A DNA stretch of 64,000 nt from an uncultured Clostridia bacterium (GCA_946547105.1 CAMNOV010000001.1:56548-120547); one strand, 5' to 3'. Counted from the first letter of the stretch, positions 20,809-59,504 are shown. Notes: generated by a model from the sequence alone, not told the origin. A program made the numbers and translations.

Positions 20809-20920
20809 GGACTTCCTTGCTCTTAATCAGAGTGTCAACAGCTGCACCGCATTCCGGTCAAAGTGTGCGGCCGAAGCATAGGATGGACCGGGGCAAGCCC
20901 CGATGCAACCGATGGGAGGA

Positions 20921-21364
20921 ATGAATTTGAACAGCAATCCAAGAGACTATCGGACCGGATCCCTGCCGGATCGCTTTCCGCTGGCCACTGCGCTCACACC
21001 GATGCAGGACAGTGCCGATCCTGTCTATGAGAGCAATGATGCGCTGAGCAGGGGAACGCTTTTTCCCGGTCTCGATCTGCCGTTTATGAACGTGATCAAT
21101 CCCGATCTGCCGTCTACGCCAATGACGGAAATGATGGCGATCGATTTTGTCGTTCACGAGCTTGGGCTTTACCTGGATACGCACGCCGAGGACGAAGAGG
21201 CATTCGCTCTTTTTCAAAGCTTTCTGGCCATGCAGAAGGAGGCGCGCAGACGCATGATCGAACTCTGTGGGCCGCTGAAAAAAACCGAACTGCTCGGCGC
21301 GGACCGCTATACCTGGCTGCATGATCCCTGGCCCTGGGACTACAGCGGCAGAAAGGAGAGATAA
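20921..21364 (+). CDS. Spore coat protein, apparent CotJA-CotJB fusion
   Basis: N-terminal CotJA-like FPLATALTPMQ...ALSRGTLFPGLDLPFMN, C-terminal CotJB-like IDFVVHELGLYLDTHAEDEEAFALFQSFL...YTWLHDPWPWDY; start could be TTG at 20927. Confidence 0.82.
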   Translation: MNLNSNPRDYRTGSLPDRFPLATALTPMQDSADPVYESNDALSRGTLFPGLDLPFMNVINPDLPSTPMTEMMAIDFVVHELGLYLDTHAEDEEAFALFQSFLAMQKEARRRMIELCGPLKKTELLGADRYTWLHDPWPWDYSGRKER

Positions 21365-35190: not shown

Positions 35191-35769
35191 ATGCGGAACT
35201 GGACAGAAATTGAAACTCAATACATCACTGGAAACATGAGCCAGAAGGAGCTCGCAGAGAGCCTTCAGATCAGCTATTCGACCCTGTCGAAGGTGGCCAC
35301 GGAAAACAAGTGGAGCGACAAGCGGAAGAAGTTCCGCAAGAAAGCGGCAAACAAAGGCCTCGAGCGCGCGGGCGCGCGGATCAGCAGGAAGCTTGCCAGG
35401 CTCGCCGAGGGCACGGAGCTGCTGATCGACGCCGCCCTGAAAGCGCTGGGGGATGAGCAGCAGTTCTATCGCTACATTGTGACGGACGGCATGGGCGAGG
35501 GCGTGAGCGTGACGAAGGAACAGATCTTTGAGAAGCTCGACGCCAAAGCGCTGAAGGATGTGACATCCGCCCTGCGCGACCTGACGGCCATGAGACGCGA
35601 TCTGTTCGGCCTGCCGACCCAGGGCGAGACCGTGGCACAGAAGATCGCACAGGAGAAGCTGGAGCTTGAGAAGCGAAAGCTGGAGCATGAGATCAGCGAG
35701 GGAGAGGACGGCGAGTCCGGCGTCATCCTGATCCCAGAGCGGAGCGGAGGCCGACCCGACGATGAGTAA
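35191..35769 (+). CDS. Terminase small subunit
   Basis: N-terminal HTH (ITGNMSQKELAESLQISYSTLSKVATENKWSDKRKKFRKK), position before terL. Confidence 0.85.
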   Translation: MRNWTEIETQYITGNMSQKELAESLQISYSTLSKVATENKWSDKRKKFRKKAANKGLERAGARISRKLARLAEGTELLIDAALKALGDEQQFYRYIVTDGMGEGVSVTKEQIFEKLDAKALKDVTSALRDLTAMRRDLFGLPTQGETVAQKIAQEKLELEKRKLEHEISEGEDGESGVILIPERSGGRPDDE

Positions 35770-37279
35770 CGCAGTCGAGGAAACAAGCCGGAACGTGATA
35801 TGGGCCCCGCAGCCGAAGCAGGCCGAGTTCATGCGCAGGACGGAATACGAGGCGCTGTACGGCGGCGCCGCCGGCGGCGGCAAGAGCGACGCCCTGCTGA
35901 TCGAGGCGCTGCGCCAGGTGGACATCCCGCACTACCGGGGGATCATCTTCCGGAAAACCTACGAGCAGCTTTCGGAGCTGATCGACCGGTCCCAGACGCT
36001 TTACTCGCTGGCCTTCCCGAAAGCCAGGTACAACGAGGGGAAGCACATGTGGAAATTTCCGAGCGGGGCGAAGATCTTCTTCGGAAATATGCAGCACAGC
36101 AAGGACAGGACGAACTATCAGGGCAAGCGCTACGACTTCATCGGCTTTGACGAGCTCACTCACTTCACCTGGGAAGAGTACAGCTACATGTTCTCCCGAA
36201 ACAGACCGAGCAAAAATCCGCGGAGCAGGAAACGGACTGTCTGCTATATGCGCGCGGCCACCAACCCGGGCGGGATCGGCCACGGCTGGGTGAAGGAGCG
36301 CTTTATAAAGCCGGCAGATCCTGGGACGAGGATCAGCGAAGAGGTGACGGTGCGCGATCCGGAGGGGAAAGAAATCAAGATCATCCGCGACCGCGTGTTC
36401 ATCCAGGCAAAGGTTTTTGACAACAAGGCGCTGCTGGACGAGGACCCGGAATACCTCGGCAGCCTGGCGCTGCTGCCGGAAAAGGAACGGAAGGCGCTGC
36501 TGGAGGGCGACTGGGACAGCTACGAGGGCCAGTACTTCACGGAGTTCCGCACCGCGCCGGACCTGAACGAGGCGAGAGACCACGGCTGCACGGAGAGCGC
36601 CGAGCAGCTGCTGCAGGAGCGGCGCTGGACGCACGTGATCGATCCGATCGATCTTTCTCACGGCGAGTCGCGCGGCTGGCGGATCTACCGCAGCTACGAC
36701 TTCGGCTACGGAAAACCCTTCAGCTGCGCCTGGTGGGCGGTTGACTACGACGGCGTGCTGTACCGGGTGCTGGAGCTCTATGGGTGTGCCGGTACGCCGA
36801 ACGAGGGCGTGAAATGGACGCCGGACCAGCAGTTTGAGAAGATCGCGGAGATCGAGCGCACGCATCCCTGGCTCAAGGGAAAGCGCATCGAGGGCGTCGC
36901 GGACCCGAGCATCTGGGACGGCAGCCGGGGCGAGAGCGTGGCCGACACGGCCTCGAAGTATGGGATCTACTTCTCGCCGGGCGTCAACGAACGGATCCCC
37001 GGCTGGATGCAGTGCCATTACAGGCTGCAGTTTGACAACAACGGATACCCGCGGATGTACGTCTTCAAGGGATGCAACGCGTTCATCCGGACGATCCCGC
37101 TGATGATGTACGATCCGGTGAAGCCGGAGGATCTGAACACGAGCCTCGAGGACCACGTGGCCGACGAGTGGCGATACATGTGCATGTCGCGGCCGATCAA
37201 GCCGATGCGGCCAGAAGAGAAAAAGGAGGTCCGGTTCGTCAACGACCCGCTGGACCTGTTGAAGGAGAGGAGACACTGA
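35762..37279 (+). CDS. Terminase large subunit
   Basis: YGGAAGGGKSDALLIEAL Walker A, FIGFDELTHF Walker B. Confidence 0.94.
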   Translation: MSNAVEETSRNVIWAPQPKQAEFMRRTEYEALYGGAAGGGKSDALLIEALRQVDIPHYRGIIFRKTYEQLSELIDRSQTLYSLAFPKARYNEGKHMWKFPSGAKIFFGNMQHSKDRTNYQGKRYDFIGFDELTHFTWEEYSYMFSRNRPSKNPRSRKRTVCYMRAATNPGGIGHGWVKERFIKPADPGTRISEEVTVRDPEGKEIKIIRDRVFIQAKVFDNKALLDEDPEYLGSLALLPEKERKALLEGDWDSYEGQYFTEFRTAPDLNEARDHGCTESAEQLLQERRWTHVIDPIDLSHGESRGWRIYRSYDFGYGKPFSCAWWAVDYDGVLYRVLELYGCAGTPNEGVKWTPDQQFEKIAEIERTHPWLKGKRIEGVADPSIWDGSRGESVADTASKYGIYFSPGVNERIPGWMQCHYRLQFDNNGYPRMYVFKGCNAFIRTIPLMMYDPVKPEDLNTSLEDHVADEWRYMCMSRPIKPMRPEEKKEVRFVNDPLDLLKERRH

Positions 37280-37280
37280 T

Positions 37281-39194
37281 ATGGACGATTACAGAAGGAG
37301 CGAACAAAGAATGCTGGAGGCTGCCCGGATCACACGCCAGGTGCAAGCCGGGGCTGCGGAGCCGCCGGCTGTGCCGGCGCCGGCGCAGGTCGTCACCGAA
37401 GAAACGCTGATCCGGTGGATGGAGATCCTGAAGAAGTACAAGGCCGGGAAGGCTAATCTTGAGAGCCGTGTGATCGCGGCGGAGAACTGGTGGAAGCTGC
37501 GCAACGATATCGAGGAGGCCAAGAGCAGCAAGCAGGGCCGGTATGATTTCAAGGCGAAGAGCGGCTGGCTGCACAACGTGATCGTGTCAAAGCACGCCGA
37601 CGCGCTCGAAGCCTACCCGGAGGCGAACATCCTGCCGAGGGAAAAGAACGACGTTGAAGAGGCGAGGATGCTGACAGCGATCATCCCATGCATCCTCGAG
37701 CAAAACAAATTCGAGGCGTGCTACAGCGAGAACATCTGGCAGAAGCTGAAAACCGGTACCGCCGTGTACCGCGTGGTCTGGGATCAGGACAAATTGAACG
37801 GGCTGGGCGACGTGCGGATCGACCGCGTCAACCTGCTGAACGTGTTCTGGGAGCCGGGGATCACCAACATCCAAGACAGCAAACACTTCTTCTGCACGCA
37901 CCTGGAGGACCGCGAGGAGCTGGAAAGCCAGTATCCGCAGACGGCGAATCGGATCAAGAGCAAAAGCTTCGAGGCGAGCAAGTTCCTTTACGACGACCAT
38001 GTGGATACGGCGAACATGGCGACGGTGATCGAACACTACTACCATCGCTGGAAGAACGGCAAGCGCGAGCTGCACTATGCGAAGTTCGCGGAGGATATCC
38101 TGCTGGAGAGCACCGAGAACCAGGGGACACCGCTGTACGATCACGGCAGATATCCCTTCGTCATGGACACGCTGTTTCCGATCGAGGGCTCGCCGGCAGG
38201 CTACGGCTTCATCGACCTCGGTAAAAACGCGCAGACGCAGATCGATCTGCTGCGCACGGCCATCCTCAAAAACGCCATGGTCAGCGCGACGCCCCGTTAC
38301 TTCGCGCGCGTCGACGGTGCAATCAACGAGGATGAGTTCCTGGATCTGTCAAAGCCGATCGTACATGTGCAAGGCCAGATGGATGAGACATACATTCGCG
38401 CCATTGAAACCAGCCGCCTGAATGCAAACTACATCAATTACCTGAGTGATATCATCTATGAACTGCGACAGGTGACCGGAAACACGGAGACCAGCACCGG
38501 AAGCAGTACGAGCGGCGCTACGGCTGCGAGCGCGATCGCGGCGCTGCAGGAGGCCAGCGGCAAGGGCAGCCGCGACAGCAGCAGGAGCAGCTACCGCGCC
38601 TTCGCGGAGATCGTGGAGCTGACGATCGAGCTGGCCAGGCAGTTCTATGATACGCCGAGGAAGTTCAGGATCGCCGGCGAAATGGGTGCGGACGACTACA
38701 CGACTTTTGACAACAGCGGGCTCAAGCCGCAGCCGCAGGAAAACCTGGACGGATCTACCGCAGGCGTGAGGCTGCCGGTGTTCGACCTGAAGATCGAGCC
38801 GCAGAAGCGTAACGCCTACACGCGCATGAGTCAGAACGAGTTGGCGCTGCAGTTCTACAACGCGGGCTTCTTTGCTCCGCAGAACGCGGACGGAGCCCTG
38901 ACTGTGCTCGGCATGATGGAGTTCGAGGGCAAGGACCAGATCATGCAGAAGATCGCGGAGAATGGGACGATGGCCCAGCAACTGAAAATGTACCAGCAGA
39001 TGGCTCTGGCGCTGGCAAAGGAATACCGACCGGATCTCGCTGAGGGACTTGCGCAGAGCATGGGCGCCGCTGCGCCTGCGTCGGCGCGGGGGAACGTGGA
39101 GTCGGCGCAGCTCGAAGAAAAAGCGCCGCAGGAAAACAGACGCGTGCAGGCCGCCAGGCAGCGAAGCGCCGAGGCATCGCAGCCACAAGGATGA
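37281..39194 (+). CDS. Portal protein
   Basis: Position after terL; portal-like sequence (GRYPFVMDTLFPIEGSPAGYGFIDLGKNAQTQIDLLRTAIL...). Confidence 0.88.
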   Translation: MDDYRRSEQRMLEAARITRQVQAGAAEPPAVPAPAQVVTEETLIRWMEILKKYKAGKANLESRVIAAENWWKLRNDIEEAKSSKQGRYDFKAKSGWLHNVIVSKHADALEAYPEANILPREKNDVEEARMLTAIIPCILEQNKFEACYSENIWQKLKTGTAVYRVVWDQDKLNGLGDVRIDRVNLLNVFWEPGITNIQDSKHFFCTHLEDREELESQYPQTANRIKSKSFEASKFLYDDHVDTANMATVIEHYYHRWKNGKRELHYAKFAEDILLESTENQGTPLYDHGRYPFVMDTLFPIEGSPAGYGFIDLGKNAQTQIDLLRTAILKNAMVSATPRYFARVDGAINEDEFLDLSKPIVHVQGQMDETYIRAIETSRLNANYINYLSDIIYELRQVTGNTETSTGSSTSGATAASAIAALQEASGKGSRDSSRSSYRAFAEIVELTIELARQFYDTPRKFRIAGEMGADDYTTFDNSGLKPQPQENLDGSTAGVRLPVFDLKIEPQKRNAYTRMSQNELALQFYNAGFFAPQNADGALTVLGMMEFEGKDQIMQKIAENGTMAQQLKMYQQMALALAKEYRPDLAEGLAQSMGAAAPASARGNVESAQLEEKAPQENRRVQAARQRSAEASQPQG

Positions 39195-39198
39195 CGCC

Positions 39199-39516
39199 AT
39201 GATCAGGATCATCTACGAGCGGGACGAGTACACCGTGACTGTCATGGGACACGCGGGAAGCGCCGAAGCCGGGAAGGATACCGTCTGCGCTTTCGTCTCC
39301 GCCCTGTCGGAGGCAATGATGAAAAGAGTAAAAGGGAACAGGAAGTGGCAGCCGGCCTATTGCATCAACAGGGAAAAAGCCATCGTCCGCGTGCATCTGA
39401 CGCCGCGGAGCCGATATGAGGCGCTGACGGCGAGGGAAATGCTCGAGACCGTCTGCGCTGGCTACCGTGCGGTCGCCGCTGATTACCCGGAGTTCGTCAG
39501 ATTCGAGGAGAGATAG
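39199..39516 (+). CDS. Phage-encoded Prp-family cysteine protease
   Basis: GHAGSAEAGKDTVCAFVSALSEAM; catalytic-type His and Cys 12 residues apart as in S. aureus Prp (H22/C34, from memory). Confidence 0.88.
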   Translation: MIRIIYERDEYTVTVMGHAGSAEAGKDTVCAFVSALSEAMMKRVKGNRKWQPAYCINREKAIVRVHLTPRSRYEALTAREMLETVCAGYRAVAADYPEFVRFEER

Positions 39517-39519
39517 CGC

Positions 39520-41244
39520 ATGGCAACATACTATTTGCCGGATCAGACAGGATGGAGCGGCAGCAGTTCGGAGAGCATTGACATCATGCTCCGCTTCGAG
39601 ATCGAACAGAGCTACGACGCGGCCACGAACAAAAGCACCTTGACGGTTAAGATGCAGGCCAAGCTGACGGGCAGCGGCTATACCTTCTCAGACTACCAGA
39701 TCGAAGCTGGCACGATACAGATCGGGAGCGGCAGCGCGCAAAGCGCCGTCGGTTGCAACGTCAACCTGAACACGCTCAACGTGTGGCGGTATCTGACGAG
39801 CGGCGGCAGTACGAAAACCTGGACCTATACGGTGACGCACAATGCGGACGGAACGGCAAGCGTGCCCTTCCACATGACCGCGTTCAACATCTACAAGTAC
39901 TACAACGGCAGCCACAACTGCCGCTTTTCGGGAGATCACACGGCCACGCTCAGTCTGGCAGAGGCCAGGCGCAGCACAATCGCAAGCTGCAGCACAAGCG
40001 TGAACACTCAGGGCAGTATCGCTCTGAGTATGAACCGGACCGGAAATCTGTACCATAAGGCACAGGTGAAGCTCGACAGCACGGTGCTGACGACGACGTC
40101 CGCCTTCGCAACGACGATCTCGATCTCCGTGCCCAGGAGCTGGTTTAGCTCCAAGCCGAATGATACGAGCTTCTCGGTCACGGTGAGCGTGCAGAGCTAC
40201 ACCGACAGCAGCTGCACCACGGCCTGCGGCACGCCGGACACCAGAACGGTGACGATCAACGCCGACAGCGGTATGAAGCCGGTCCTTCAGAGCGGGTACG
40301 CGTCTGCAAGTCCGTACAACACAGGAAGCGCCGCCGAAGGGATCAACAAATTTGTCTCCGGTTACTCAAAAGCCACTGTCACGCTGGACAGCAGCAAGCT
40401 CGACATGAGTGCGGCGGTCGGCGCGGATGTGAGCACCATCAAGGTCGAAGGCGGCGGCGTGACGGCAACGAGCTCGCCATACCGGACGGGTGTACTGCGC
40501 GACACGGCGACGATCACGGTCACGGTGACAGACACCAGGGGACGGAGCGGGACCCTGACGCTGAGCGTGACCGCGCTGGCCTACAACAACCCGAGGCTGA
40601 GCGCGATCACGGTGATCCGCTGCAATTCCTCGGGGACGGAGGCGGAGGACGGCGCTTACTACGCGGTAACCGCGACGCTGACGATCAGCAGCCTGGACGG
40701 CGCCAACAGCGCGACGCTGACCGCAAACGGAAACGCATTGACGAGTGGGACGCGTCGGATCCTCGGCGGGTCGCTGAACGCGGACCAGAGCTACACGGTG
40801 ACGATCCTCGGCGAGGACGCGCTGGGGAACACAGCAATGGTGACAGTTGTGCTGCCGGGGCGGAAGTGGGCGATGCGCTTCCGGGAAGACGGGAACGGAG
40901 TCGGCTTCGGCATGACGCCGGAGATCGGATTCGCGATCGAGATACCGGAGAGCTGGAGCATCCTTATCGGAGCACATAAGATCTGGGGGAAACGAGTCGG
41001 CTTGAATGCCGGCGGGTCGACCACTGTGCAGCTCAGCCCTTGGACGCAGTACCTGGTGACACCGGATTACGGTCAGGTGTGGATCGTGCAGACAAGAGCT
41101 GCCAATCAGCAGCCGCTTGTGGCCACAGCTTTCTCAGCCGTGAGCAACAGCAATATCAGCTGCACGGCAGGAAGCGACTGCACGCTCACACTTCAAAATA
41201 CGCACAGCTCGTATTCATACGCATTCGACATCAGAAAACTTTGA
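39520..41244 (+). CDS. DUF859-like phage structural protein
   Basis: Repetitive beta-rich T/S-rich sequence; end ...GRKWAMRFREDGNGVGFGMTPE. Confidence 0.78.
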   Translation: MATYYLPDQTGWSGSSSESIDIMLRFEIEQSYDAATNKSTLTVKMQAKLTGSGYTFSDYQIEAGTIQIGSGSAQSAVGCNVNLNTLNVWRYLTSGGSTKTWTYTVTHNADGTASVPFHMTAFNIYKYYNGSHNCRFSGDHTATLSLAEARRSTIASCSTSVNTQGSIALSMNRTGNLYHKAQVKLDSTVLTTTSAFATTISISVPRSWFSSKPNDTSFSVTVSVQSYTDSSCTTACGTPDTRTVTINADSGMKPVLQSGYASASPYNTGSAAEGINKFVSGYSKATVTLDSSKLDMSAAVGADVSTIKVEGGGVTATSSPYRTGVLRDTATITVTVTDTRGRSGTLTLSVTALAYNNPRLSAITVIRCNSSGTEAEDGAYYAVTATLTISSLDGANSATLTANGNALTSGTRRILGGSLNADQSYTVTILGEDALGNTAMVTVVLPGRKWAMRFREDGNGVGFGMTPEIGFAIEIPESWSILIGAHKIWGKRVGLNAGGSTTVQLSPWTQYLVTPDYGQVWIVQTRAANQQPLVATAFSAVSNSNISCTAGSDCTLTLQNTHSSYSYAFDIRKL

Positions 41245-41256
41245 GGAGGGGCCAGG

Positions 41257-42687
41257 ATGGACGAGAAGAGATACAAGAGGATCCAGGAGAAGATCAACAA
41301 CACAGGGGCCGCCGACGCCAGAGAGCGCGCCGAGCTGCAGAGCATCGCGGCGCGGCCGGTGCAGGTGGAGCAGCCGGCGCAGCCGGTAAGACCGGCCCAA
41401 CCGAGGCAGGCGGCGAGCGTGCAGAGCGCCCAGGGACCGCAGGCCGACGAGCAGCAGAACAGCGGCCGTGCTTATCAGACCTACGAGGAGACCGGCGAAG
41501 CGGCGCCGCAGAACGCACCGTCCCCGCAGCCGCAGGAAACGCCGAACGCAGGGGGCGGCTATGTCAGCCCGTACAGCCAGCAGATCAACGACTTGTACCA
41601 GCAGATCACCGGACGCCAGCCCTTCAGCTACAACATCGACGAGGACGCCATGTGGCAGAGTCTGAAAGCCGACTATCAGCAGATGGGGAAGAAGGCCATG
41701 CGCGACACCATGGGGCGTGCGGCGGGGCTGACGGGCGGCTACGGCAGCAGCTACGGCCAGGCGGCAGGCCAGGCGGCTTATGACGAGTACCTCACGCAGC
41801 TGAGCGAGCGGGCGCCGGAGCTCTACGACCGGGCGCTGAACCGCTACCAGCAGGAGGGGAACGATATGCTGGACCGCCTCGGCATGCTGATGGAGCGTGA
41901 CGCGAACGATTATAACCGCTACGCGAGCGAGCGGGCCTACGCCGACGAGCGCGCGGATCTGGAGTACCAGCGGCAGCAGAGGGAGAAGGAGTACGCCGAC
42001 AGCCGCGCCGACGTGGAATACCAGCGCCAGCAGAAGGAGCGGGACTACATCATCGGGCTGATCCAATACGGCTACAATCCGACGGACGAGGATCTCGCCG
42101 GCGCTGGCATGACCAGGGAAGAAGCGGACAAGCTGGCCGCGTACTGGCAGGCGGGCAACCCGGACATGGCCTACCGCCTCGGCCTGATCAGCGCCGATGA
42201 ATACTACCGCATGACCGGAGAGTATCCGGCTGGGTATACGCCGGAGATCACGACGCCGGTATATTACGGAACCGGTTCCGGGGGCAACGACGGTAACGGC
42301 GACGGCGGGCAGGGCCTCTCTGATGAAGAGTTCAAGCGGCTGATGCAGGGCGTCGGTACGTCGAGAAGCGATGCGGAAAGGGCGGCGACCATCCAAAGAC
42401 TCAAGGAGTCCGGCGTGTACGATAAGCTGTCGCCCGAACAGCAGAATCTGCTGAACCGGGTGAAAGGATCGGCGGCTGGCACAAGAGGCAGCGGAGGCCA
42501 GGGCTATACCTACGGCAGCGGGATCCCGGCGCAGCAGTTCTACAGCATCGAATCTGCTATCGCCAATGCGGGATCTCCGGCAGCAGCGATGAGTCAGTTT
42601 GATAAAATCACAGACAGCACCTTCAACAATATGAGCAAGGCACAGCTCGATCGACTGTCCGCAGCTATGAGGAAGGCAGGGACGTAA
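41257..42687 (+). CDS. Hypothetical virion-associated protein
   Basis: Gln/Ala/Pro-rich N-terminus; EYQRQQ(R/K)E(K/R)-YADSRADVEYQRQQ repeats; structural operon. Confidence 0.7.
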   Translation: MDEKRYKRIQEKINNTGAADARERAELQSIAARPVQVEQPAQPVRPAQPRQAASVQSAQGPQADEQQNSGRAYQTYEETGEAAPQNAPSPQPQETPNAGGGYVSPYSQQINDLYQQITGRQPFSYNIDEDAMWQSLKADYQQMGKKAMRDTMGRAAGLTGGYGSSYGQAAGQAAYDEYLTQLSERAPELYDRALNRYQQEGNDMLDRLGMLMERDANDYNRYASERAYADERADLEYQRQQREKEYADSRADVEYQRQQKERDYIIGLIQYGYNPTDEDLAGAGMTREEADKLAAYWQAGNPDMAYRLGLISADEYYRMTGEYPAGYTPEITTPVYYGTGSGGNDGNGDGGQGLSDEEFKRLMQGVGTSRSDAERAATIQRLKESGVYDKLSPEQQNLLNRVKGSAAGTRGSGGQGYTYGSGIPAQQFYSIESAIANAGSPAAAMSQFDKITDSTFNNMSKAQLDRLSAAMRKAGT

Positions 42688-42688
42688 T

Positions 42689-45600
42689 ATGACAAAAGAT
42701 GAATTTCTGAAAAGCAGGCAGGGGAGCGACGCGAGGCAGAGCTCCCCTGCCTCTGAGCAGACAGGCAAGACAAGTGCGAGCAGCGCCGGGAGCGGAACGC
42801 TTACAAAGCAGGAGTTCTTGAAGTTGAGACAGCAGGGGGGGCAGCTGCCGTGGCAGGATGAGTCACCCTATGCGAGCCTGCTGCCGGGCTATCAGCCGAA
42901 GCAGCAGCGCTCCGGTCAAGTGTTCACGTTCTCGGGCGCCGGCGGGAAGATCGACGGCGGCAGCGAGTGGAGACGCGATATCGACGTGACCGACGGCAAT
43001 CGGCTTGTCAATCTCGCCAGCTACGACAGCGCGACCGATCGCTTCCTGCGGGAGCTGCAGGAGGAGCGGGACAAGGCGGCGGCCTCCGGCATGAGCAGCG
43101 AGGACTGGTACGCGCAGCGGAAGAACGAGCTGCAGATCCTGAGCGAGGAAAACGCCAAGGCACAGGGCGCCAAGCAGAAAGCGTCCGCCGGACTCGGCGC
43201 AGGAGCAGCAGCCGGTGAGTTCGGCTATATGTTTGAAGACGAACGCAAGGCGGCCGAGGAAGCATACGGATCTGCCAAGGATGAAGCGGACAAGGCGTTT
43301 CAAGCGCTGCAGGACGCGAAAAAGCGGCTGAGCTATGCCGAGCTCTTCCGTTGGGACGACACACGAAACGGGGAAGGATTCCAGGCCGCCGCAGAAAAAG
43401 GCGCGGCCAGCGACCGGAACAAGGTCACGCTCGCCGAGCGGGAAAGAGAGAACATCCTCAACGGCGGGTACAACTCCGACGTCAACGTCCTGATGCGCGA
43501 CGACTATGATCCATACTTCGACATCGACCCGGAGTCGCTCCTCGCTTACACGCACATGAGCGAGGACGAGAAAGAGATCTACAACTACCTGCTGGGCGCA
43601 CGCGGCGAGCAGGCGGCCGACGAGTACCTGGAAGATATCCGGGAGACTCTGAACGCCAGACAGGGCTATGCGGCGGCCGAGCGGATCGAGCAGCAGGGGA
43701 AGGGCCTGCGGCTGGTCAACGAGCTGGCACTCGCCGGCGGGTCCGGCCTGGAAAACGCGGTCGAAGGCATCGGCCAGAACTTCAGCGCGAAGGCGCGCAA
43801 GACCTCGCCCACGCAGTACGCGAGCCAGTATGCCCGGCAGAACATCGAGAGACACAGCGGGCCGAGGCTCGCAGGCCGCAGCCTGGAAGGCGTCGCCTAC
43901 GATGCGACGAATACCATGGCCAACATGGTGCCGAGCCTCGCCGTCGGCGCGATCAACCCGATCGCCGGCGCGGCGACGATGGGTCTGCAGAGCAAGGGCA
44001 ACGCCTACAAGCAGGCGCTGGACGAGGGCTATACCAGAGGACAGGCCGAGATCTACTCTTTCACGATAGGCACAGCCGAAGCCGGACTGCAGTATCTGCT
44101 GGGCGGCTTTGCCAAGCTGGGCGGCATTGAGCAGTTCACCGGGAAGATGACGGCGAAGATCGGCAAGGCCGGCCTGCGAGCCGCGGCGGAGATCGGCATC
44201 GATATTGTGGGCGAGAACACGGAGGAGTACCTGCAGAACAAGCTGGAGCCTCTGCTGCGCAACACGATCTTCGGCGAGAACAACGAGATCCGTCTGTGGG
44301 ATGACGAGGACACCTACACGCTGATCCTCACCACGTTGACGACCGGCATAATGAACGGCGCAGAGAAGGGCGTCAACGTAGCGCTCACGAGGAATCAGAT
44401 CCGCAGCGTAGGCAAGAGCTGGATGCAGCAGGGCCTGGACACGGAACTGATCGAGAAAGCGGCGGCGATGGAGGACTCGAGCGTGCAGCAGCTCGCCACA
44501 CAGCTGCAGGCCGAGGGACACAAGCCCAGCGCCCGAGAGCTCGGCGAGCTGGCGATCGCCTATGAGGCGGCCGGCGGCGACATGAGCTTTGTGATCGAGC
44601 ATTCGCTGAAAACGGACGAGAAGGCCACTGACGCCATTCGGAAAACGGAAGGGCAGGACGCTGTGCCCGGCGGGGAAAACGCGGCAGAGACCGAGATCGA
44701 GCGCGCCGCGGCCATCCACGGCAAAGACGCGAAGGTGATCGAGGACATGTACCAGGAGGGACAGGACGCGGACGAATACGCCCGCGCCATGGACGCCGGT
44801 ATAAATCTGCTGGCCGCCGAAGGATCCAACCGGGAGGCTCTGGACAGGAGCAGCCTGACCGCCTATCTGACAGAGCAGCAGAAGAACGCCGCCTGGGAGA
44901 TCGGTCATGTCAAGTATGAGAACCGACAGCAGCGCGCCGCCGAGCTCAGCCGGAGAGGAAGCGAGCGGGAGGTGAGCGAGATCCGGCAGGGGAACGTCAG
45001 CTATGAAGGCGCGACGATCGACGGCGTGGAGTATCAGGGCGTGGACCGTGCTGCGCTGAGCGAGCAGACAAGAAAGCAGGCGGACGCCTGCGGCAGCCTG
45101 GCCGAGTCGCTCGGCGTAGATCTGACCTTCTTCGACGGGGAAGGCAGCGACACTCAGGGCGCGTATCGTCAGGGCGGAAAGATCTATCTGAACGTGAACG
45201 CAAAGGGAAGCATGGGCGAGGCACTGCTTGTCAGCACCTTCAGCCATGAGGTCACGCACTTCGCTGAGGAGTACGGCGGGACCGCCTATGAGGAGCTGCG
45301 CAGCTATGTCGTCAAGACGCTGGCCGGGAACGACACGGCGAAGTTTGAACAGCTGGTGGAGGCCAAGCGCAAGACGCGCGGCGGGATCAGCTATGAGGAA
45401 GCGCTGAGCGAGGTCGTGGCCGACGGCTGCGAGATGATGCTGCGGGACACGCACGCGCCGGAGAGGCTTGCCCGGGAAAACCCGACGCTGCTGCGGCAGA
45501 TCTGCGACTGGCTGGACGGCTGGGTGAAGAAGATCAAGGCTGCCTTCGGCGGCGTGGACGCCCGGCACCCGGAGGCAAAGGCGCTGATGGAGAACGCCGA

Positions 45601-48600
45601 GGCGCTGCAGGCCCGCTGGGACAAGGCGCTGGCCGAGGCCGTGCAGAATCGGGAAGCTGAGCGAGACGTCGAAGGCAACAAAAAAGCCGCCGAAGACGGC
45701 GGCCGCGTGCAGTATTCGAAAGAGGAGCAGGAAGAGATCCTTCATCTTCAAGATCAGATCAGAGCACACGAAGATGAGCTGAATGCCATGGATCCCGTGG
45801 CATCGATCAAAGTACCTGATACGATCGATCCATTTGATGTGAAAAAGATGATCAAATGGGCAATAAACATTCTAAAACCGTTTCGGGTCGTTGACACGAA
45901 ACTTATCGGAAAAGTTGAGCTTGACGCTGAGCAGATCGACAACAGCTTTAACTACTTGCCAAGCCCGAAAAGTAAAACGAGAAAGGAGAATACAAGGAGA
46001 GCTGTCATAGCTGCGTATCCGGCAATTCCGAAGGTTCTTAAGCAAGGGATTGAGATAGAAAGGCATGTGAAGCATAAAGGAAACAACCACGATACAGTTA
46101 CAATTGCCGCACCCGTGATGCTGAACAATGAGCGCGGGAACATGGGGGTTGTTGTAAAACTAACAAAAGGAAACCGATATAAAGTTCACAGAATTTTGAC
46201 CCCGGGAGGAGACCTCTTGACTCTGAATAGAGAAGAAGCAGGCCGTCAACCCGCGGGGCGGATTTCCGAAGAAATACCGGTGACGCCGCGCAAACTGCCT
46301 GCTTCTGATAATAAGATATCACAGACGGAGGATGATGTCAAGATTCAGAAATCCGAGCGGGACAACAGCGTGAGCGACCGGGAGCTCCTGCGGGAGGCGG
46401 CAGAGCACGAGGGTGCAAGCGAGGAACTGAAGAAGTACGCCAAGAAGGCCGACAATCTGGAAGCCTATCAGCACCGGCTGGAGCGACAGGAAGCCAAGCT
46501 TCGAAACGGAAATATCAGCTCAGAAGAGCGGGCCCAGGTCGAGAAGCGTATCAGCGAGACGAAGGCCCTGATCGGCAGAACACAGGATGCGTTGACCCAG
46601 ATGGAGCTGCGGCCGAGCATGCAGCAGGAGATCCAGGCTGCCAGAGAAACCTGGTGGAACGCGAACATGGGCGACGCCGTGCAGACGGCCCGAGAGATCC
46701 AGCGGGAAAACCGCGAGCTGAAGGAGGCCGTCGATTACTACCGCGAGCAGGCCAAGTTGACCGGACCGGAGAACCGACGCGTGGATCCGGCCGACGTCAA
46801 ACGTTTTGTCCGGGCCCTGCTGAAGGAGCACGAATCAAGCGCCGATGCAGAGAAGGTTTCCACCATACTGCAGAAGCTGGGCGACAAGCTGGTGCGCGGC
46901 GACAGCGGCAGCCTGGACTATTTCGAACTGAAGAGGCAGGCGGACAGAGCGGCAAAGCTGATTGTCGACGAGGTCTACAAGGACGTGAACGCAGAGATCG
47001 CGGACGAGCTGAGCGGCCTTTCCTCGCGCGTGAGGGAAGCCAGGCTGCAGATCAGCGACGAGCTGCGCGGGGACATTCCAGACTTCAACGCATGGCGGAA
47101 GGCGCGGCTCGGACGCTTCACGTTGGTCAATGAGGGCGGCAGGAGCATCGACGATTTCTATCAAACGCTGCGGGACGACTACGGCGAGGGACACTTCCCG
47201 TCTTCGATCACGTCCGCATCCGGACAGATCGAGCAGATCGAACGCAAACTGGATGCGGCCCGGCCGAGGTATCAGTACGCATACACCGAAATGCAGCACG
47301 ACGAAAGAGTGAGTCTCGTCTCGCAGGAGATCATGGACACGATCCTTTCGGGCGAGATCCGGGAGGCCGAGACCATCGCCGACAGGAACTATCGGAAGAT
47401 GCAGGAGCGCATGCTCACAGCCCGAGAAGCGCAGAGGGATGCCGAGCGCCGGGCAAACGCCGCCGAGCGCAGGGCAGACCGCGCGGAGGAGACAGCGCTC
47501 CGGCAGGCGCGCGAAGAGCAGCGGGAGATCACCCGAGATAAGATCACTCTGCTGCGGGAGGAACTGAACGAGGGGCGCGAGGCGCAGCAGAAGCGCATCA
47601 ACATCGAGCGCATGCGCGGCAGGCTGAGCCGCCTGATCCGGGAGAACAGCGCCAAGAAGCACGTGCCGGAGGCGCTGCGCGGAGACATCGGCAAGTTCCT
47701 GCTGAGCCTGGATACGCTGGGGCCGTTCAGCGAAGGCACCAAGAGCGAAGCGAAGTTCAAACAGGAAATGCAGGAGATCGAGCGCGCGCTCGGGAACATC
47801 ATGAACAACGGCGAGCTCGGGGATTTCTATGGAGACCTCGAGCTGACAGAGGGCGTGAAGGCCATGCTGCAGAACAACATCGCCGACGTGAGGGCTGCGA
47901 TCGGCGGCCTGGAAAACGGGAAGCAGGTAACACGCCGGATGAATCTCCAGCAGCTGCGCTCACTGGAAGAGACGCTGACCGTGCTGAGCACTGCTGTGAG
48001 GAACATGAACGAGCTGCTTTCCGACGGCGAACACCGCTACGCCCACATGGACGAGCTGGGCGAGCACACGATCAGCGAGACGCGAGAAATCGAGGAGAGG
48101 AAGAAGGCCGGAGGCGAACTCGGCCGACAGCTTAAGTGGGCGAACCTCACCCCATACTATGCCTTCAAGCGCTTCGGGGAAGCGGGGCAGGAGATCTTCC
48201 GCGGACTGACCAGAGGCTGGGGCAAGATGGCCCGGCACATCGAGCAGGTGCAGAGCTTTGCCGAGAACGCCTACACCGCAGAGGAAGCGAAGAGCTGGGA
48301 GCAGAAGGAGCACAGCTTCAAGCTGGTGCCTCGCGGTCTCAAGGCGGGATCTGAGAGCGCCGTGCTGAGCGGGGACATGGACTTGAAGAAGGACGCCGAG
48401 ACCGTGACGCTCACCGAGGCGCAGATCATGAGCCTATACTGCCTCAACAAGCGCGAGCAGGCGCGCGGTCACCTGTACGGCGCCGGCATCCGCATCGGGG
48501 ATTACCAGATTGGGAATCACAGGCCCACGACGCAGAGCGAGCATTATCTGCTGGATCTCGACGACATGGCGACGATCCTGAAGACGCTGAGCCCGCGACA

Positions 48601-51193
48601 GATCGAGGTCTGCGATACGCTGGTGAAGTACATGAACACCGTCGGCAGTTCCTGGGGCAACGAGGTGAGCATGAAGCTCTACGGCATCCGGGGCTTTACC
48701 GAGGAGAACTACTTTCCGATCCGCACCGACAGCACGCAGCACAAGGCGAAGACCAAGGACAGCGACCGGGGCAATCTGTTCCGACTGGCCAATCAGAGCT
48801 TCACGAAGCAGCTGACGAAGAACGCGAACAACGCGATCATCGTCGACAGCATCTTCGACGTCTGGTCCGATCACATGGCGGACATGGCCAAGTATAACGC
48901 GATGGTTCTGCCGATGCTGGACGCCATGCGCTGGTATAACTACCAGGCGGAAACGACGAGCGTGCAGCAGGCGCTGCAGCGCGCCTTCGGCGGAGAGGCC
49001 GGGCGCTACTTCCTGGACTTCATGCAGGACATGAACGGAGCGGGAGAGGGCGGACGCGGAGAGCAGGTGTTCAGCAAGCTGATGAGCGGAGTCAAGGTGG
49101 CCAGCGTAGGCGCCAACGTGCGCGTGGCGCTGCAGCAGCCGACCTCGATCGCGCGCGCTTCGCTGCTGGTGAATCCGAAATACCTGGCTGCCGGAGCCGC
49201 GATCAAGGGAGGCAGGGAAAAGGCCATCAAGTATTCCGGCCTTGCAGTATGGAAGGATCTCGGCTATTTCGACGTGAACGTGAACCGCGGCATGCGAGAG
49301 CAGATCAAGCATGCGGACACGCTGAAGGAGAAGATCCAGGACGTCAGCCTGACCCTTGCGGAAAAGGGAGACCAGCTCACTTGGGGCGCGCTGTGGAACG
49401 CCTGCGAGCTGGAGACCAAGGACAAGACCGGGCTCGCCGGCGAGGAGTTGATGCAGAAGACGGCCGAGCGCTTCGACGAGGTGATCCTGGCGACGCAGGT
49501 GATGGACAGCACGCTGACCCGCAGCTCCAACATGCGCAGCAAGAGCATGATGATGAAGGAGTTCACCGCTTTCATGGCCGAGCCGACGCTGACCTACAAC
49601 ATGCTGCTGGACTGCTACAGCGAGTTCGACAAGATCAAGCGGAGCAAGGGGACGGCCGCAGCCATGAGCCAGATGAAGGGGCCGGCCCTGCGAACCGCGG
49701 CCGTGTACTGCGTGAGCGCCGCGCTGACCGCCATCGCACAGGCCGTGGCCGACGCCGGGCGTGACGATGACGATTATGAGACCTGGCTGCAGAAGTTCAC
49801 GCAGCACTGGAGCGAGAACTTCTTCGACAACCTGAACCCGACGAAGCTTGTGCCGATCGTTCAGGATCTCTGGACGATGATCGTGGAAAAGAAGGACAAG
49901 CAGCTGCTTGTGCTGCAGCCGATCCAGCAGGGTCTGCAGGCTTATCAGATCTGGCGCGAGTGGTATCTTGTCGAGAGCGGGAAGCAGGACAAGGCGACGA
50001 AGACGACCTGGTACGGCAACATGACGATGTACGGCCAGATCTACAAGACGCTGCAGTTCTTCAGCAGCCTGAGCGGGCTACCGATGGGAGCGGCGACGAG
50101 GGAATTTCAGAGCGGGTACAACACACTCCTGCGGCCGCTGCTGAATGCCACCTGGGGCAAGGCAAGCGGGAAGGAGTTGCCGAAGTGGCGCACCTACGAC
50201 GGCGGGCCGCAGCGGCAGATCAAGAGCGCCTGGGAGAGCGGCCTTCTCGACGACGAGGAGGCGAAGAAGCTGCTGATCAGCGAGGGCGTGGCCAAGGACG
50301 AGACCGAAGCCGGAAAGACGATCTACTGCTGGAGCATCGACGGGGCGAGCGCATACAAGGCGGTCAAGGAGGCCGCGGTCAAGGGCGACACGAAGGCCTA
50401 CTGGGAAGCCATGAACGCCATGACAGCCGCCGGCTATACCGAAAAGGACGTGCAGACCGAGGTCAAAAAAGAAATCAAGCAACAGTATCTGCAGCCGGAG
50501 AGCGGGCTTGAGCTGAGCAAGGCCTACTGCGTCAGGTATCTGGTGCAGTTCGCCGGGATGGATCAGACCGACGCCGAGAAGCTCGCCCAGGAGTGGACCT
50601 GCTTCAAGGTGACCGGGATCGCCTATGACGACCTGAAGGAAGCCTACGTCAGCAGGGAGATCAGCGCGGATAGGGCGAAGCAGCTGCGCATGACCTACGG
50701 CGGGATCGATCAGACCAAAGCCAAGAAGACCGTGCTCGGCTGGGCCTGCGAGAAGGAATGCGGCTATGATCCCTCCGAACTGGACGACGCTTACATGGCC
50801 GGCGACCTGAACAGGAAAGACGCGAAGCGTCTGCTGCAGAAGTACGGGAACATGGACAGCGAGTCGGCGGAATTCGAGCTGCAGAAGCTGGACTTCCGGA
50901 AAAAAGTACCGGCTGCCTCGGACATCTCGGATGATGCATTAAGGGACTTCAAAGAATACGCCGAGCCGGCCGGGATCAGCGCGGCAACGTACTATAGCTT
51001 CTGGTCCGCGACTAAAGAAGGTGTGATAAAATCCGACCGTGACGCCAACGGGAAGGAAATCAAAGGCAAGAAAAGAAAGGATAAAGTCGTCGCATACATC
51101 AATGGGCTGAACTTGGAGGCAACTCAGAAGGATGCTCTGTTCCTTGTGTATTTTGCAGAAAGCGGCCTGAAAAAAGCACCATGGAACAAGTGA
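42689..51193 (+). CDS. Giant (2834 aa) large polyvalent/ejection-type protein with HEVTH metalloprotease motif
   Basis: STFSHEVTHFAEEYGG; coiled coils; N-terminal duplicated TK(D/Q)EFLK(S/L)RQ; C-terminal degenerate repeats. Confidence 0.85.
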   Translation: MTKDEFLKSRQGSDARQSSPASEQTGKTSASSAGSGTLTKQEFLKLRQQGGQLPWQDESPYASLLPGYQPKQQRSGQVFTFSGAGGKIDGGSEWRRDIDVTDGNRLVNLASYDSATDRFLRELQEERDKAAASGMSSEDWYAQRKNELQILSEENAKAQGAKQKASAGLGAGAAAGEFGYMFEDERKAAEEAYGSAKDEADKAFQALQDAKKRLSYAELFRWDDTRNGEGFQAAAEKGAASDRNKVTLAERERENILNGGYNSDVNVLMRDDYDPYFDIDPESLLAYTHMSEDEKEIYNYLLGARGEQAADEYLEDIRETLNARQGYAAAERIEQQGKGLRLVNELALAGGSGLENAVEGIGQNFSAKARKTSPTQYASQYARQNIERHSGPRLAGRSLEGVAYDATNTMANMVPSLAVGAINPIAGAATMGLQSKGNAYKQALDEGYTRGQAEIYSFTIGTAEAGLQYLLGGFAKLGGIEQFTGKMTAKIGKAGLRAAAEIGIDIVGENTEEYLQNKLEPLLRNTIFGENNEIRLWDDEDTYTLILTTLTTGIMNGAEKGVNVALTRNQIRSVGKSWMQQGLDTELIEKAAAMEDSSVQQLATQLQAEGHKPSARELGELAIAYEAAGGDMSFVIEHSLKTDEKATDAIRKTEGQDAVPGGENAAETEIERAAAIHGKDAKVIEDMYQEGQDADEYARAMDAGINLLAAEGSNREALDRSSLTAYLTEQQKNAAWEIGHVKYENRQQRAAELSRRGSEREVSEIRQGNVSYEGATIDGVEYQGVDRAALSEQTRKQADACGSLAESLGVDLTFFDGEGSDTQGAYRQGGKIYLNVNAKGSMGEALLVSTFSHEVTHFAEEYGGTAYEELRSYVVKTLAGNDTAKFEQLVEAKRKTRGGISYEEALSEVVADGCEMMLRDTHAPERLARENPTLLRQICDWLDGWVKKIKAAFGGVDARHPEAKALMENAEALQARWDKALAEAVQNREAERDVEGNKKAAEDGGRVQYSKEEQEEILHLQDQIRAHEDELNAMDPVASIKVPDTIDPFDVKKMIKWAINILKPFRVVDTKLIGKVELDAEQIDNSFNYLPSPKSKTRKENTRRAVIAAYPAIPKVLKQGIEIERHVKHKGNNHDTVTIAAPVMLNNERGNMGVVVKLTKGNRYKVHRILTPGGDLLTLNREEAGRQPAGRISEEIPVTPRKLPASDNKISQTEDDVKIQKSERDNSVSDRELLREAAEHEGASEELKKYAKKADNLEAYQHRLERQEAKLRNGNISSEERAQVEKRISETKALIGRTQDALTQMELRPSMQQEIQAARETWWNANMGDAVQTAREIQRENRELKEAVDYYREQAKLTGPENRRVDPADVKRFVRALLKEHESSADAEKVSTILQKLGDKLVRGDSGSLDYFELKRQADRAAKLIVDEVYKDVNAEIADELSGLSSRVREARLQISDELRGDIPDFNAWRKARLGRFTLVNEGGRSIDDFYQTLRDDYGEGHFPSSITSASGQIEQIERKLDAARPRYQYAYTEMQHDERVSLVSQEIMDTILSGEIREAETIADRNYRKMQERMLTAREAQRDAERRANAAERRADRAEETALRQAREEQREITRDKITLLREELNEGREAQQKRINIERMRGRLSRLIRENSAKKHVPEALRGDIGKFLLSLDTLGPFSEGTKSEAKFKQEMQEIERALGNIMNNGELGDFYGDLELTEGVKAMLQNNIADVRAAIGGLENGKQVTRRMNLQQLRSLEETLTVLSTAVRNMNELLSDGEHRYAHMDELGEHTISETREIEERKKAGGELGRQLKWANLTPYYAFKRFGEAGQEIFRGLTRGWGKMARHIEQVQSFAENAYTAEEAKSWEQKEHSFKLVPRGLKAGSESAVLSGDMDLKKDAETVTLTEAQIMSLYCLNKREQARGHLYGAGIRIGDYQIGNHRPTTQSEHYLLDLDDMATILKTLSPRQIEVCDTLVKYMNTVGSSWGNEVSMKLYGIRGFTEENYFPIRTDSTQHKAKTKDSDRGNLFRLANQSFTKQLTKNANNAIIVDSIFDVWSDHMADMAKYNAMVLPMLDAMRWYNYQAETTSVQQALQRAFGGEAGRYFLDFMQDMNGAGEGGRGEQVFSKLMSGVKVASVGANVRVALQQPTSIARASLLVNPKYLAAGAAIKGGREKAIKYSGLAVWKDLGYFDVNVNRGMREQIKHADTLKEKIQDVSLTLAEKGDQLTWGALWNACELETKDKTGLAGEELMQKTAERFDEVILATQVMDSTLTRSSNMRSKSMMMKEFTAFMAEPTLTYNMLLDCYSEFDKIKRSKGTAAAMSQMKGPALRTAAVYCVSAALTAIAQAVADAGRDDDDYETWLQKFTQHWSENFFDNLNPTKLVPIVQDLWTMIVEKKDKQLLVLQPIQQGLQAYQIWREWYLVESGKQDKATKTTWYGNMTMYGQIYKTLQFFSSLSGLPMGAATREFQSGYNTLLRPLLNATWGKASGKELPKWRTYDGGPQRQIKSAWESGLLDDEEAKKLLISEGVAKDETEAGKTIYCWSIDGASAYKAVKEAAVKGDTKAYWEAMNAMTAAGYTEKDVQTEVKKEIKQQYLQPESGLELSKAYCVRYLVQFAGMDQTDAEKLAQEWTCFKVTGIAYDDLKEAYVSREISADRAKQLRMTYGGIDQTKAKKTVLGWACEKECGYDPSELDDAYMAGDLNRKDAKRLLQKYGNMDSESAEFELQKLDFRKKVPAASDISDDALRDFKEYAEPAGISAATYYSFWSATKEGVIKSDRDANGKEIKGKKRKDKVVAYINGLNLEATQKDALFLVYFAESGLKKAPWNK

Positions 51194-51205
51194 ATCACCA
51201 TGCGA

Positions 51206-51237
51206 AGAGGCAGGGGATACCCTGCCTCTTTTTCTTT
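51206..51237 (+). terminator. Intrinsic terminator after giant gene
   Basis: AGAGGCAGGGgataCCCTGCCTCTTTTTCTTT. Confidence 0.92.
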
Positions 51238-51251
51238 GAAAAAGTTTAAGG

Positions 51252-51298
51252 CCTGTCGTAGAGAAAGGCGGCGGGTAGTCGGTAGACTTTGAGCAGAA
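51252..51298 (+). promoter_or_regulatory. Late element copy 2 (candidate late promoter)
   Basis: CCTGTCGTAGAGAAAGGCGGCGGGTAGTCGGTAGACTTTGAGCAGAA. Confidence 0.8.
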
Positions 51299-51361
51299 CA
51301 GGGGGAGTCATCCGCCCGCGGCAAATACTTCCGGCCGCAAAGAGGATCGTAAAGGAGACCT

Positions 51362-52381
51362 ATGGAAGACATGATGATTCTGGGCCTGCAGTTCTTCGCC
51401 GGGGAAGGCGCAACCGGCGGCGAAGGCGGAAGCGGGGGAGGATCGGATCCGGGCGTAACAGCTGCCGCCCCGGGGCAGGAGGCACAACTGGAACAGCTGG
51501 GCGTACCCAGAAGCGAGGCGAAAAAATACGGGGCGAAAATGAGGATGCCGCAGCCGGCGCAGCCGACGGAGCCGAAAGGCGAACCTGTCGCGCCGGATCC
51601 GGCAGGGCAGACCCCCGCTGCCGAGCCTGCGGAGGGGCAGAAGCCGACGCGGAAAAACCTGGCGGAGCTTATCAAGGAAGACCCGGAGCTCAACCGTGAG
51701 CTGCAGGGGATCCTGAGTGAGCGGGTCAAGGGATTCGCGCAGGCACGTGACACGCTGAAAGGTCTGGAACCGGCGCTGGCGATCATCGCCAGGAGCTACG
51801 GGATGGACGTCAGCGATATGAGCAAGCTGGACTACGGTGAGCTCAGTAAGCACGTGACCGAAGACGACCGCTATTGGGAAGAACTTGCCGGAGAGTACGG
51901 CGTGACTCCGGACGTGGCCAGAAAGATCAAGGGCTATGAACAGCTGCAGGAAGCGGAGACGCAGCGGCAGCAGCAGGCGCAGCAGGACAGAATGTTCCGC
52001 AATCACATTGCGAAGCTGGTCCAGCAGGGCGAGGAGCTGAAGACAGTCTTCAAAGACTTCGACCTCATGCGCGAGCTGCAGGATCCGAACTTCAAGCGAC
52101 TGACGAGCCCGGAGGTCGGGCTGAGCGTTAAGGACGCCTACTACACGGTCCACCGGGAAGAAATCCGAAAAGCGGAAAACGAACTGATCGCACAGCGAAC
52201 CAGGGAAGCCATGGCCAACAGCATCGCGGCCGGCCAGTACAGGCCGCGGGAAGGCGGCGGCGGACAGGCTGCCAGCACGGGCGGGCTCAGCCGGACCAAA
52301 TGGGACAAGGCGAGCATCGCAGCCGTCAAGAAGGAGGCAGAGGCCGCCATCGCCCGGGGAGAAACATACTACATCAGATAG
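51362..52381 (+). CDS. Scaffold-like protein with N-terminal Prp-type cleavage motif
   Basis: MEDMMILGLQFFAGEGATGG...; Gln/Glu-rich helical, directly upstream of capsid gene. Confidence 0.85.
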   Translation: MEDMMILGLQFFAGEGATGGEGGSGGGSDPGVTAAAPGQEAQLEQLGVPRSEAKKYGAKMRMPQPAQPTEPKGEPVAPDPAGQTPAAEPAEGQKPTRKNLAELIKEDPELNRELQGILSERVKGFAQARDTLKGLEPALAIIARSYGMDVSDMSKLDYGELSKHVTEDDRYWEELAGEYGVTPDVARKIKGYEQLQEAETQRQQQAQQDRMFRNHIAKLVQQGEELKTVFKDFDLMRELQDPNFKRLTSPEVGLSVKDAYYTVHREEIRKAENELIAQRTREAMANSIAAGQYRPREGGGGQAASTGGLSRTKWDKASIAAVKKEAEAAIARGETYYIR

Positions 52382-52416
52382 CCGGGGCCGAGCTCCCCGG
52401 CGGAAGGGAGCAACAT

Positions 52417-53730
52417 ATGAGAAACATGATCCTTGGCCTGCAGTTCTTCGCGGACGCGGGCACGCTGGTCAACACCAGCGTTAATTACGCGAATGCCTAC
52501 GATCCCTCGCAGGCGCAGAGCTTCAGCCCTCCGGACACGCTGAGTCCGGAGATGAAGACCTTCTATGACACCGCCCTCCTGGAGCACGCGCGCGACAAAC
52601 TGGTCTATGCGCAGTTCGCCAAGAGACAGCCGCTGCCGAAGAACCACGGCAAGAATGTCGAATGGCGCAAGTTCAACACCTTCAAGAAGGCGACGCAGCT
52701 GGTCGAAGGCGTGATCCCCACCGGCCAGAAGATGGGCCTCGTGACGATCACGGGCAGCATCGATCAGTTCGGTACGTACACGTCGATCAGCGACCGCCTG
52801 GAGCTGAGGGGCTACGACCCGATCATCATGGTGGCCACCGAGGAGATGGGCGCTTCCGGCGCCCGCACGCAGGAGGAGCTGATCCGCGACGCGCTGTTCG
52901 CCGGGACGAACGTCCTCTACTGCGACAAGATCGCCGCCGCCAACGGCGCCGCGACCAAGGTCAGCAAGCAGTCCGACCTCGTCGACAACGCCAGCTACAG
53001 CTGCCGCATGACCGACAGCATGGTCCTGAAGATGCGCACGATCATGCGCAAGAACAAGGCGCCCACGATCAACGGCTGGTACGTCGCCGTGATCCATCCC
53101 TCTGTGGAGGAAGATCTCCGCAGATGCCAGGGCTGGCGCGAGGCCCACATGTACGCGCAGCCGGAAGAGATCTACAAGGACGAGATCGGCGAGCTGCACG
53201 GCATCCGCTTCATTTCGAGCGAGAACGCGCCCGTGTTCAAGGCTGCGCCCCTGCACGCTGCGGGCAGAACCCTGCTGATCAACTACCAGAGCGGCTACAC
53301 CGGCGCCATCACCAGCGTCGCATTTGACGGCGGCACGGTGGCGAACGACGCGCTGAAGGATCACTATATTTCCATCAACGGCGTCGTGGCCAAGGTGACC
53401 GGCAACACCGCCAACAGCATCAGCTTCGCCTCCACCAACTTCGGCAGCATCGCCGACAACACGGTGATCTATCCCGCCGACTTCGGTGCGGACGACGTCG
53501 CCGCCTACGCGACCTACGTCTTCGGCGCCGACAGCTTCGGCATCATCGATCCGGAGGCCGGCGGCATGGAGATGATCGTGAAGAGCCGCGAGCAGGCCGG
53601 CGGCCCGCTGAATCAGTTCAGCACCGTGGGCTACAAGTTCGAGTCGAACGGCGCGACGATCCTCTACGAGGAACGCCTGCTGCGCGTGATGAGCACGAGC
53701 AGCTACTCCGACACCGACGAGGCCAACTAA
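52417..53730 (+). CDS. Major capsid protein, N4-gp56 family-like, with N-terminal Prp-type cleavage motif
   Basis: MRNMILGLQFFADAGTLVNTS...FAKRQPLPKNHGKNVEWRKFNTF. Confidence 0.9.
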   Translation: MRNMILGLQFFADAGTLVNTSVNYANAYDPSQAQSFSPPDTLSPEMKTFYDTALLEHARDKLVYAQFAKRQPLPKNHGKNVEWRKFNTFKKATQLVEGVIPTGQKMGLVTITGSIDQFGTYTSISDRLELRGYDPIIMVATEEMGASGARTQEELIRDALFAGTNVLYCDKIAAANGAATKVSKQSDLVDNASYSCRMTDSMVLKMRTIMRKNKAPTINGWYVAVIHPSVEEDLRRCQGWREAHMYAQPEEIYKDEIGELHGIRFISSENAPVFKAAPLHAAGRTLLINYQSGYTGAITSVAFDGGTVANDALKDHYISINGVVAKVTGNTANSISFASTNFGSIADNTVIYPADFGADDVAAYATYVFGADSFGIIDPEAGGMEMIVKSREQAGGPLNQFSTVGYKFESNGATILYEERLLRVMSTSSYSDTDEAN

Positions 53731-59168: not shown

Positions 59169-59504
59169 ATGGAAGCGTACAAGGAAAGAATGATCGAGGA
59201 GTACAAGCAGCTCAAGGAGCGGTACAATAAGCTGCACCGCCTGCTCGTGAAGTACGACGCAGGAACGCTTGACTTCACGCTGAACTGCCCGGTTGATCTG
59301 CTTCGCAGGCAGGCAGAGGCCATGTGGGACTATCTGTATATTCTGGAGGTCCGGGCAGAAATCGAAGGCGTTCCGCTGGAAGACCTCGGCGAAAGTGTCA
59401 GTGCTGAACCGATTGACGCCTCGCCGATCGACCTCTCGCCGTTCAAACCGATCGCCCCGATCCCGACCCCTCGGCCTGTTGAGCCGATCAAAGAAGACAA
59501 ATAA
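59169..59504 (+). CDS. Hypothetical phage protein
   Basis: 111 aa coiled-coil N-terminus, Pro-rich C-terminus. Confidence 0.7.
   Translation: MEAYKERMIEEYKQLKERYNKLHRLLVKYDAGTLDFTLNCPVDLLRRQAEAMWDYLYILEVRAEIEGVPLEDLGESVSAEPIDASPIDLSPFKPIAPIPTPRPVEPIKEDK

Follow-up and report, generated by a model that had tools for sequence, protein, structure and literature searches.

A prophage-encoded Prp-family protease and putative matching cleavage sites on scaffold and capsid in a Clostridia lineage without cellular Prp

Introduction

Tailed phages classically remove the pro-segments of their capsid and scaffold proteins with serine prohead proteases, which serve the same role as that considered here with a fold and chemistry different from those of Prp. 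In the case of phage 80alpha, scaffold and capsid are cut by the Prp cysteine protease of the Staphylococcus aureus host at N-terminal sites of the LQFF/A type, the slash marking the bond between F and A at which Prp is known to cleave (PMC5744158, PMC9405229). Blocking the cleavage of 80alpha capsid or scaffold leaves the phage viable, though the scaffold N-terminus itself is essential (PMC5744158). The second precedent is the protease orf13 of Streptococcus phage Cp-1 (MEROPS C108, clan CR), a phage-encoded Prp-family enzyme that trims the major head protein of its own phage. Other phage-borne proteins of the Prp fold are catalogued as phrog_4478 "peptidase" or as "YsxB-like" and "cysteine protease" entries of metagenomic phages in BFVD, all by similarity alone and with no substrate or matched site stated.

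Here, we describe a prophage whose Prp is such a phage-borne protein too and which shares with the S. aureus Prp/80alpha system the protease family, the fold and N-terminal LQFF/A-type sites on scaffold and capsid. Unlike S. aureus Prp, which is host-owned, essential and also trims ribosomal protein L27, it is phage-encoded in a host that has neither a Prp nor an L27 site. Its resemblance to the Cp-1 protease extends to sequence, profile and a gene position in the late operon. In contrast, Cp-1 has a phi29-type capsid from which 48 residues are removed and which lacks an LQFFA site, its protease has a short His-Cys loop, and its host S. pneumoniae has a Prp of its own (PMC9405229); moreover, that the prophage enzyme acts on its own capsid is suggested by linked sites and joint loss. 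In a non-exhaustive literature search, we found no description of a phage that encodes Prp along with L27-like capsid sites, nor of such a pairing in a Prp-less host, and this arrangement is a variant of its two precedents, host Prp acting on 80alpha and the Cp-1 protease.

Results

The stretch of DNA that we analysed (64,000 nucleotides; hereafter the window) corresponds to C1:56548-120547 of a 1.89-Mb MAG of 85.6% completeness from the genus that holds Candidatus Limivicinus. Host genes flank the prophage on the left (a cotJA/cotJB ORF, DNA ligase, lipoate ligase and SipL) and on the right (LytR-CpsA-Psr and phosphofructokinase). A serine integrase at the left end (21481..22929, minus strand; PF00239/PF07508, phrog_95) abuts the fused cotJA/cotJB spore-coat ORF (20903-21364), an arrangement that points to an insertion within or beside the cotJ operon, and a small ORF near its right end (59169-59504) matches the crAss001_48 family (PF21825). 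The plus strand encodes the terminase large subunit (35762..37279; PF03237, phrog_979) and a P22/SU10-like portal protein (37281..39194; PF16510 E=2e-34, phrog_156 E=4e-81) directly upstream of the Prp gene. Prp is separated from the scaffold by a tail-like gene, a 476-aa ORF and a 2834-aa ORF (42689..51193, plus strand; phrog_22978 E=2e-170) that does not carry the motif described below, so that the interval 39199-53730 consists mostly of other genes. This large ORF sets Prp 12 to 17 kb from the scaffold in window-type phages, as directly seen in two sister phages that also have it (L337 and L338); it is absent from relatives with short operons, shows an HEVTH metallopeptidase-like motif though no Pfam domain, and possibly encodes an ejected internal protein.

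The Prp ORF (39199..39516, plus strand) is intact from its ATG at 39199, 4 bp downstream of the portal stop, to a stop codon ending at 39516. Its 105-aa product is a member of the Prp cysteine proteases (MEROPS C108) by profile, by its His-Cys dyad with an accompanying Asp (His18, Asp27 and Cys30) and by fold. A Pfam profile search matched it to PF04327 (Peptidase_Prp) at E=1.8e-12, scoring 47.8 bits (cut-off 27), and it also matched phrog_4478 at E=4e-12; together with a His18-Cys30 spacing of 12, this bears out the original prediction of a Prp-like protease at this position. Residues G17, H18, A19, G25, D27 and C30 (window Prp numbering) are invariant in an alignment of 21 divergent phage Prps. 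The AF2 model (pLDDT 92.5) found its best PDB match in S. aureus Prp (7kld, TM 0.83; 7jvs, TM 0.82), in crystal structures that contain a ligand or substrate peptide. Elsewhere in the family, the Prp of one phage locus (L320:5855-6271) has an insertion within the catalytic loop (GHAGYGGKAAPPSPQGEGLGGDIVC).

The scaffold protein (51362..52381, plus strand; assigned by position and family, phrog_13908 E=6e-41) begins with MEDMMILGLQFFAGEG, and the major capsid protein (52417..53730, plus strand; phrog_1357 E=1.5e-61), which belongs to the N4-gp56 family with 193.6 bits against the TIGR04387 cut-off of 60, begins with MRNMILGLQFFADAG. The string common to both N-termini is exactly MILGLQFFA, as had been claimed from the sequence, and the DNA coding for these nine residues is identical at 24 of 27 positions; a purine-rich stretch precedes each start codon of Prp, scaffold and capsid. 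This sharing is beyond chance: At window composition, LQFFA has a probability of ~6e-7 per position, with ~0.0006 N-terminal matches expected among 60 genes, and the four occurrences of the back-translated motif in the whole 1.89-Mb genome include N-terminal ones in scaffold and capsid only. The putative Prp site of the scaffold covers codons 1-13 (51362..51400, plus strand), with the cut predicted at F12/A13 (MEDMMILGLQFF/AGEG) by analogy to 80alpha (PMC5744158), and that of the capsid covers codons 1-12 (52417..52452, plus strand), with a predicted cut at F11/A12 (MRNMILGLQFF/ADAG) next to an F11 that is invariant in 16 aligned relatives with the motif. Because known Prp cleavage falls between F and A, we would expect mature proteins starting at A13 and A12, respectively, and the cut originally proposed was placed one residue too far downstream. 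The structure model of the capsid was weak (pLDDT 60.7) and was left out of the analysis.

The only Prp found in the host genome, searched as an 85.6%-complete MAG, is that of the phage. Host L27 is encoded on the contig of the prophage, 25 kb from the window, and starts with MAHKKG (MAHKKGMGSTKNG) with neither an extension nor a Prp site; the gene order is rplU, rpmA, obgE, with no prp beside L27 and nothing between rplU and rpmA. Likewise, L27 is short and has no linked Prp in each of the 33 genus genomes where it was detected, so that the ribosomal Prp/long-L27 system was either lost by the host or never present in it, and no Prp of any kind was found in five genus genomes of 95-99% completeness (G001, G008, G012, G018 and G022). 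The genus has 19 other Prp loci, each of them adjoining a phage portal, and every genus genome with a Prp also carries the N4-gp56 capsid type of the window. In the order's other families, a long L27 (..IQFFAHKKG) and an adjacent Prp coincide in 15 genomes, and both are missing from 7.

These absences bear on two other views of the enzyme. Host Prp cuts 80alpha capsid and scaffold at similar sites and some related phages live in Prp-bearing hosts, from which one could argue that the host's own Prp processes the phage proteins and that the phage gene is a passenger. We consider this very unlikely, since a host without Prp, in which the 80alpha type of maturation by a host-encoded enzyme is lacking, cannot process phage proteins in this way; the idea is contradicted for the whole genus, and phage Prps are conserved, under purifying selection (dN/dS 0.04-0.52) and on a tree branch of their own. 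It is scarcely credible that the phage Prp mainly targets host L27 and thereby alters the host ribosome: Prp-family enzymes do cut L27 at such sites in Firmicutes, but the L27 of this host offers no extension or site, which contradicts the idea here, and the window Prp, encoded after a portal gene rather than between rplU and rpmA and with no long L27 at hand, reached 34.1 bits against the NCBIfam equivalog of ribosomal Prp (YsxB), far under its cut-off of 166. The suggestion that the phage enzyme may also act on host L27 thus does not hold for this host, for which it is likewise misleading to speak of substrates that mimic L27; relatives in hosts with long L27 may differ in this respect.

Relatives gathered by a capsid search comprised 80 viral contigs and 80 named genome contigs, the latter mostly from rumen or gut Oscillospiraceae MAGs and including one cultured Butyrivibrio. 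The prophage of cultured Butyrivibrio proteoclasticus P6B7 (L252) has a Prp, the capsid motif FDIQLFA and the scaffold motif FDLQLFG. The window Prp, used as query against viral contigs, retrieved no close relatives, and searches of annotated phages returned distant Prp matches alone, without annotation. Dereplication at 90% capsid identity left 89 loci with a portal, of which 75 have both Prp and the capsid motif, 10 have neither and 4 carry the motif but no Prp that the HMM detected (Fisher p=2e-10, for loci that are not independent). Three of the four (L112, L120 and L133) carry a divergent short His/Cys ORF at the place of Prp. In most related phages, Prp is encoded after the portal and the capsid has an LQxFA-like start, and the order portal-Prp-scaffold-capsid recurs among them; the scaffold motif is common though not universal, and many close relatives have the motif on the capsid only. 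The sole unexplained exception is L236, whose host (G110) has a short L27 and which combines an IDLQLFA capsid with no Prp after the portal; this host has another Prp elsewhere in its genome (G110:C9:1217-1480). We also note window-type phage loci (L202/L337 and L334) in a MAG labelled Bacteroidales (G112; L27 MAHKKGQSSSKNGR), which reflects misbinning or else a broader host range.

Protease and capsid motif were lost together at least three times, in three ingroup lineages, and are also both missing from the distant isolates Pascal and API480. The capsids of Prp-less phages start with MNLTVNTTAGDVNAFD, close to the expected first residue of the other capsids after trimming. One phage of the window's genus (L353) has no Prp, only 14 bp from portal stop to scaffold start and a capsid beginning MAVTDITVNM, while L155, whose capsid body is 89% identical, has a Prp and the capsid start MNINLQFFADAG; another phage, in a host with short L27 (L352), has neither Prp nor motif. 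On the capsid tree, Prp requires five changes and the motif four, the extra change being L236. The joint losses are not numerous, and pairs were too few for an independent-pairs sign test to reach significance. They weigh against the quite improbable reading that MILGLQFFA is an uncut assembly or chaperone-binding signal, with Prp binding the segment as a partner or acting elsewhere. For 80alpha, it is indeed the scaffold N-terminus and not its cleavage that is essential (PMC5744158), but in the relatives studied here the segment vanishes with the protease and leaves a capsid that starts near the predicted mature end, and the catalytic His, Asp and Cys are invariant in phage Prps.

Scaffold and capsid sites within a phage agree at 192 of 219 core positions, compared to 120 expected by shuffling. 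Since single linkage joined all phages into one capsid cluster, within-cluster permutations were replaced by nearest-neighbour controls, in which scaffold and capsid match at 3.6 of 5 positions within a phage and at 2.7 of 5 with its three nearest neighbours, a rough comparison that treats phages as independent. Sister-pair contrasts were too sparse to add to this, with 5 concordant and 1 reversed of 22. The motif class in which P3 is not Q pairs with short-loop Prps in one clade, where FHLF[AD]-type sites occur in phages whose Prp loop from His to Cys is short (NHxxxHDxC) and recalls that of Cp-1. Such Prps with a His-Cys spacing of ~7 lie at L118:8606-8944, L136:6905-7228 and L141:5251-5574; the subfamily falls short of the usual Prp thresholds, and annotation would overlook it. 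We discarded the view that the FHLFD phages have no protease, as they do have the short-loop Prp.

Discussion

We propose, with a probability of roughly 0.87, that the prophage supplies its own Prp-family protease for procapsid maturation. The His-Cys dyad of this enzyme would cut the N-terminal pro-segments of both proteins, scaffold and N4-gp56 capsid, at the F/A bond of an LQFF/A site, probably during or just after procapsid assembly, and removal of the pro-segments may aid virion assembly. With neither a Prp nor a cleavable L27 in the host, the phage enzyme would be the sole Prp activity available, and structural proteins of the phage rather than the ribosome its likely targets. The earlier idea of a dedicated capsid and scaffold maturation protease is thus supported by the pattern across the 89 loci and the repeated joint loss.

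One might think that phage Prp merely compensates for Prp-less hosts. We rejected this explanation because some phages bring a second Prp into hosts that already have an L27-linked one (e.g., G085, G086, G098, G100, G102 and G105) and because Prp-less phages occur in Prp-positive hosts as well (G060-G063 and G067-G069). The presence of phage Prp in both kinds of host rather points to a dedicated maturation enzyme of the lineage, though the viability of 80alpha without capsid or scaffold cleavage (PMC5744158) implies that cleavage may be of minor effect.

In a tree of 40 L27-linked and 72 phage Prps, a single branch separates the two groups (support 89/85; recovered in 88% of bootstrap trees), and there is no sign that phages repeatedly captured Prp from their hosts. 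It is conceivable, if unlikely, that Prp and LQFF/A sites form an ancient phage procapsid-maturation module of which the L21-L27 operon captured both parts, giving rise to the Prp/long-L27 pair of Firmicutes.

Prp is an antibiotic target for which substrate-matched natural variants would be useful, and the phages described here provide protease-substrate pairs of matched specificity (LQFFA, IQLFA, LTKFD and FHLFD), along with a host genus where no essential cellular Prp would interfere with work on the phage enzyme. They also allow a possible phage origin of ribosomal Prp to be examined. In hosts without ribosomal use for them, sites and protease are kept and are lost together, which argues that L27-like cutting is selected for virion building itself; in the host of the window, trimming thus appears to be retained for the assembly of virus particles. 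This bears on the question of why Prp cleavage of scaffold and capsid occurs in 80alpha, which can do without it.
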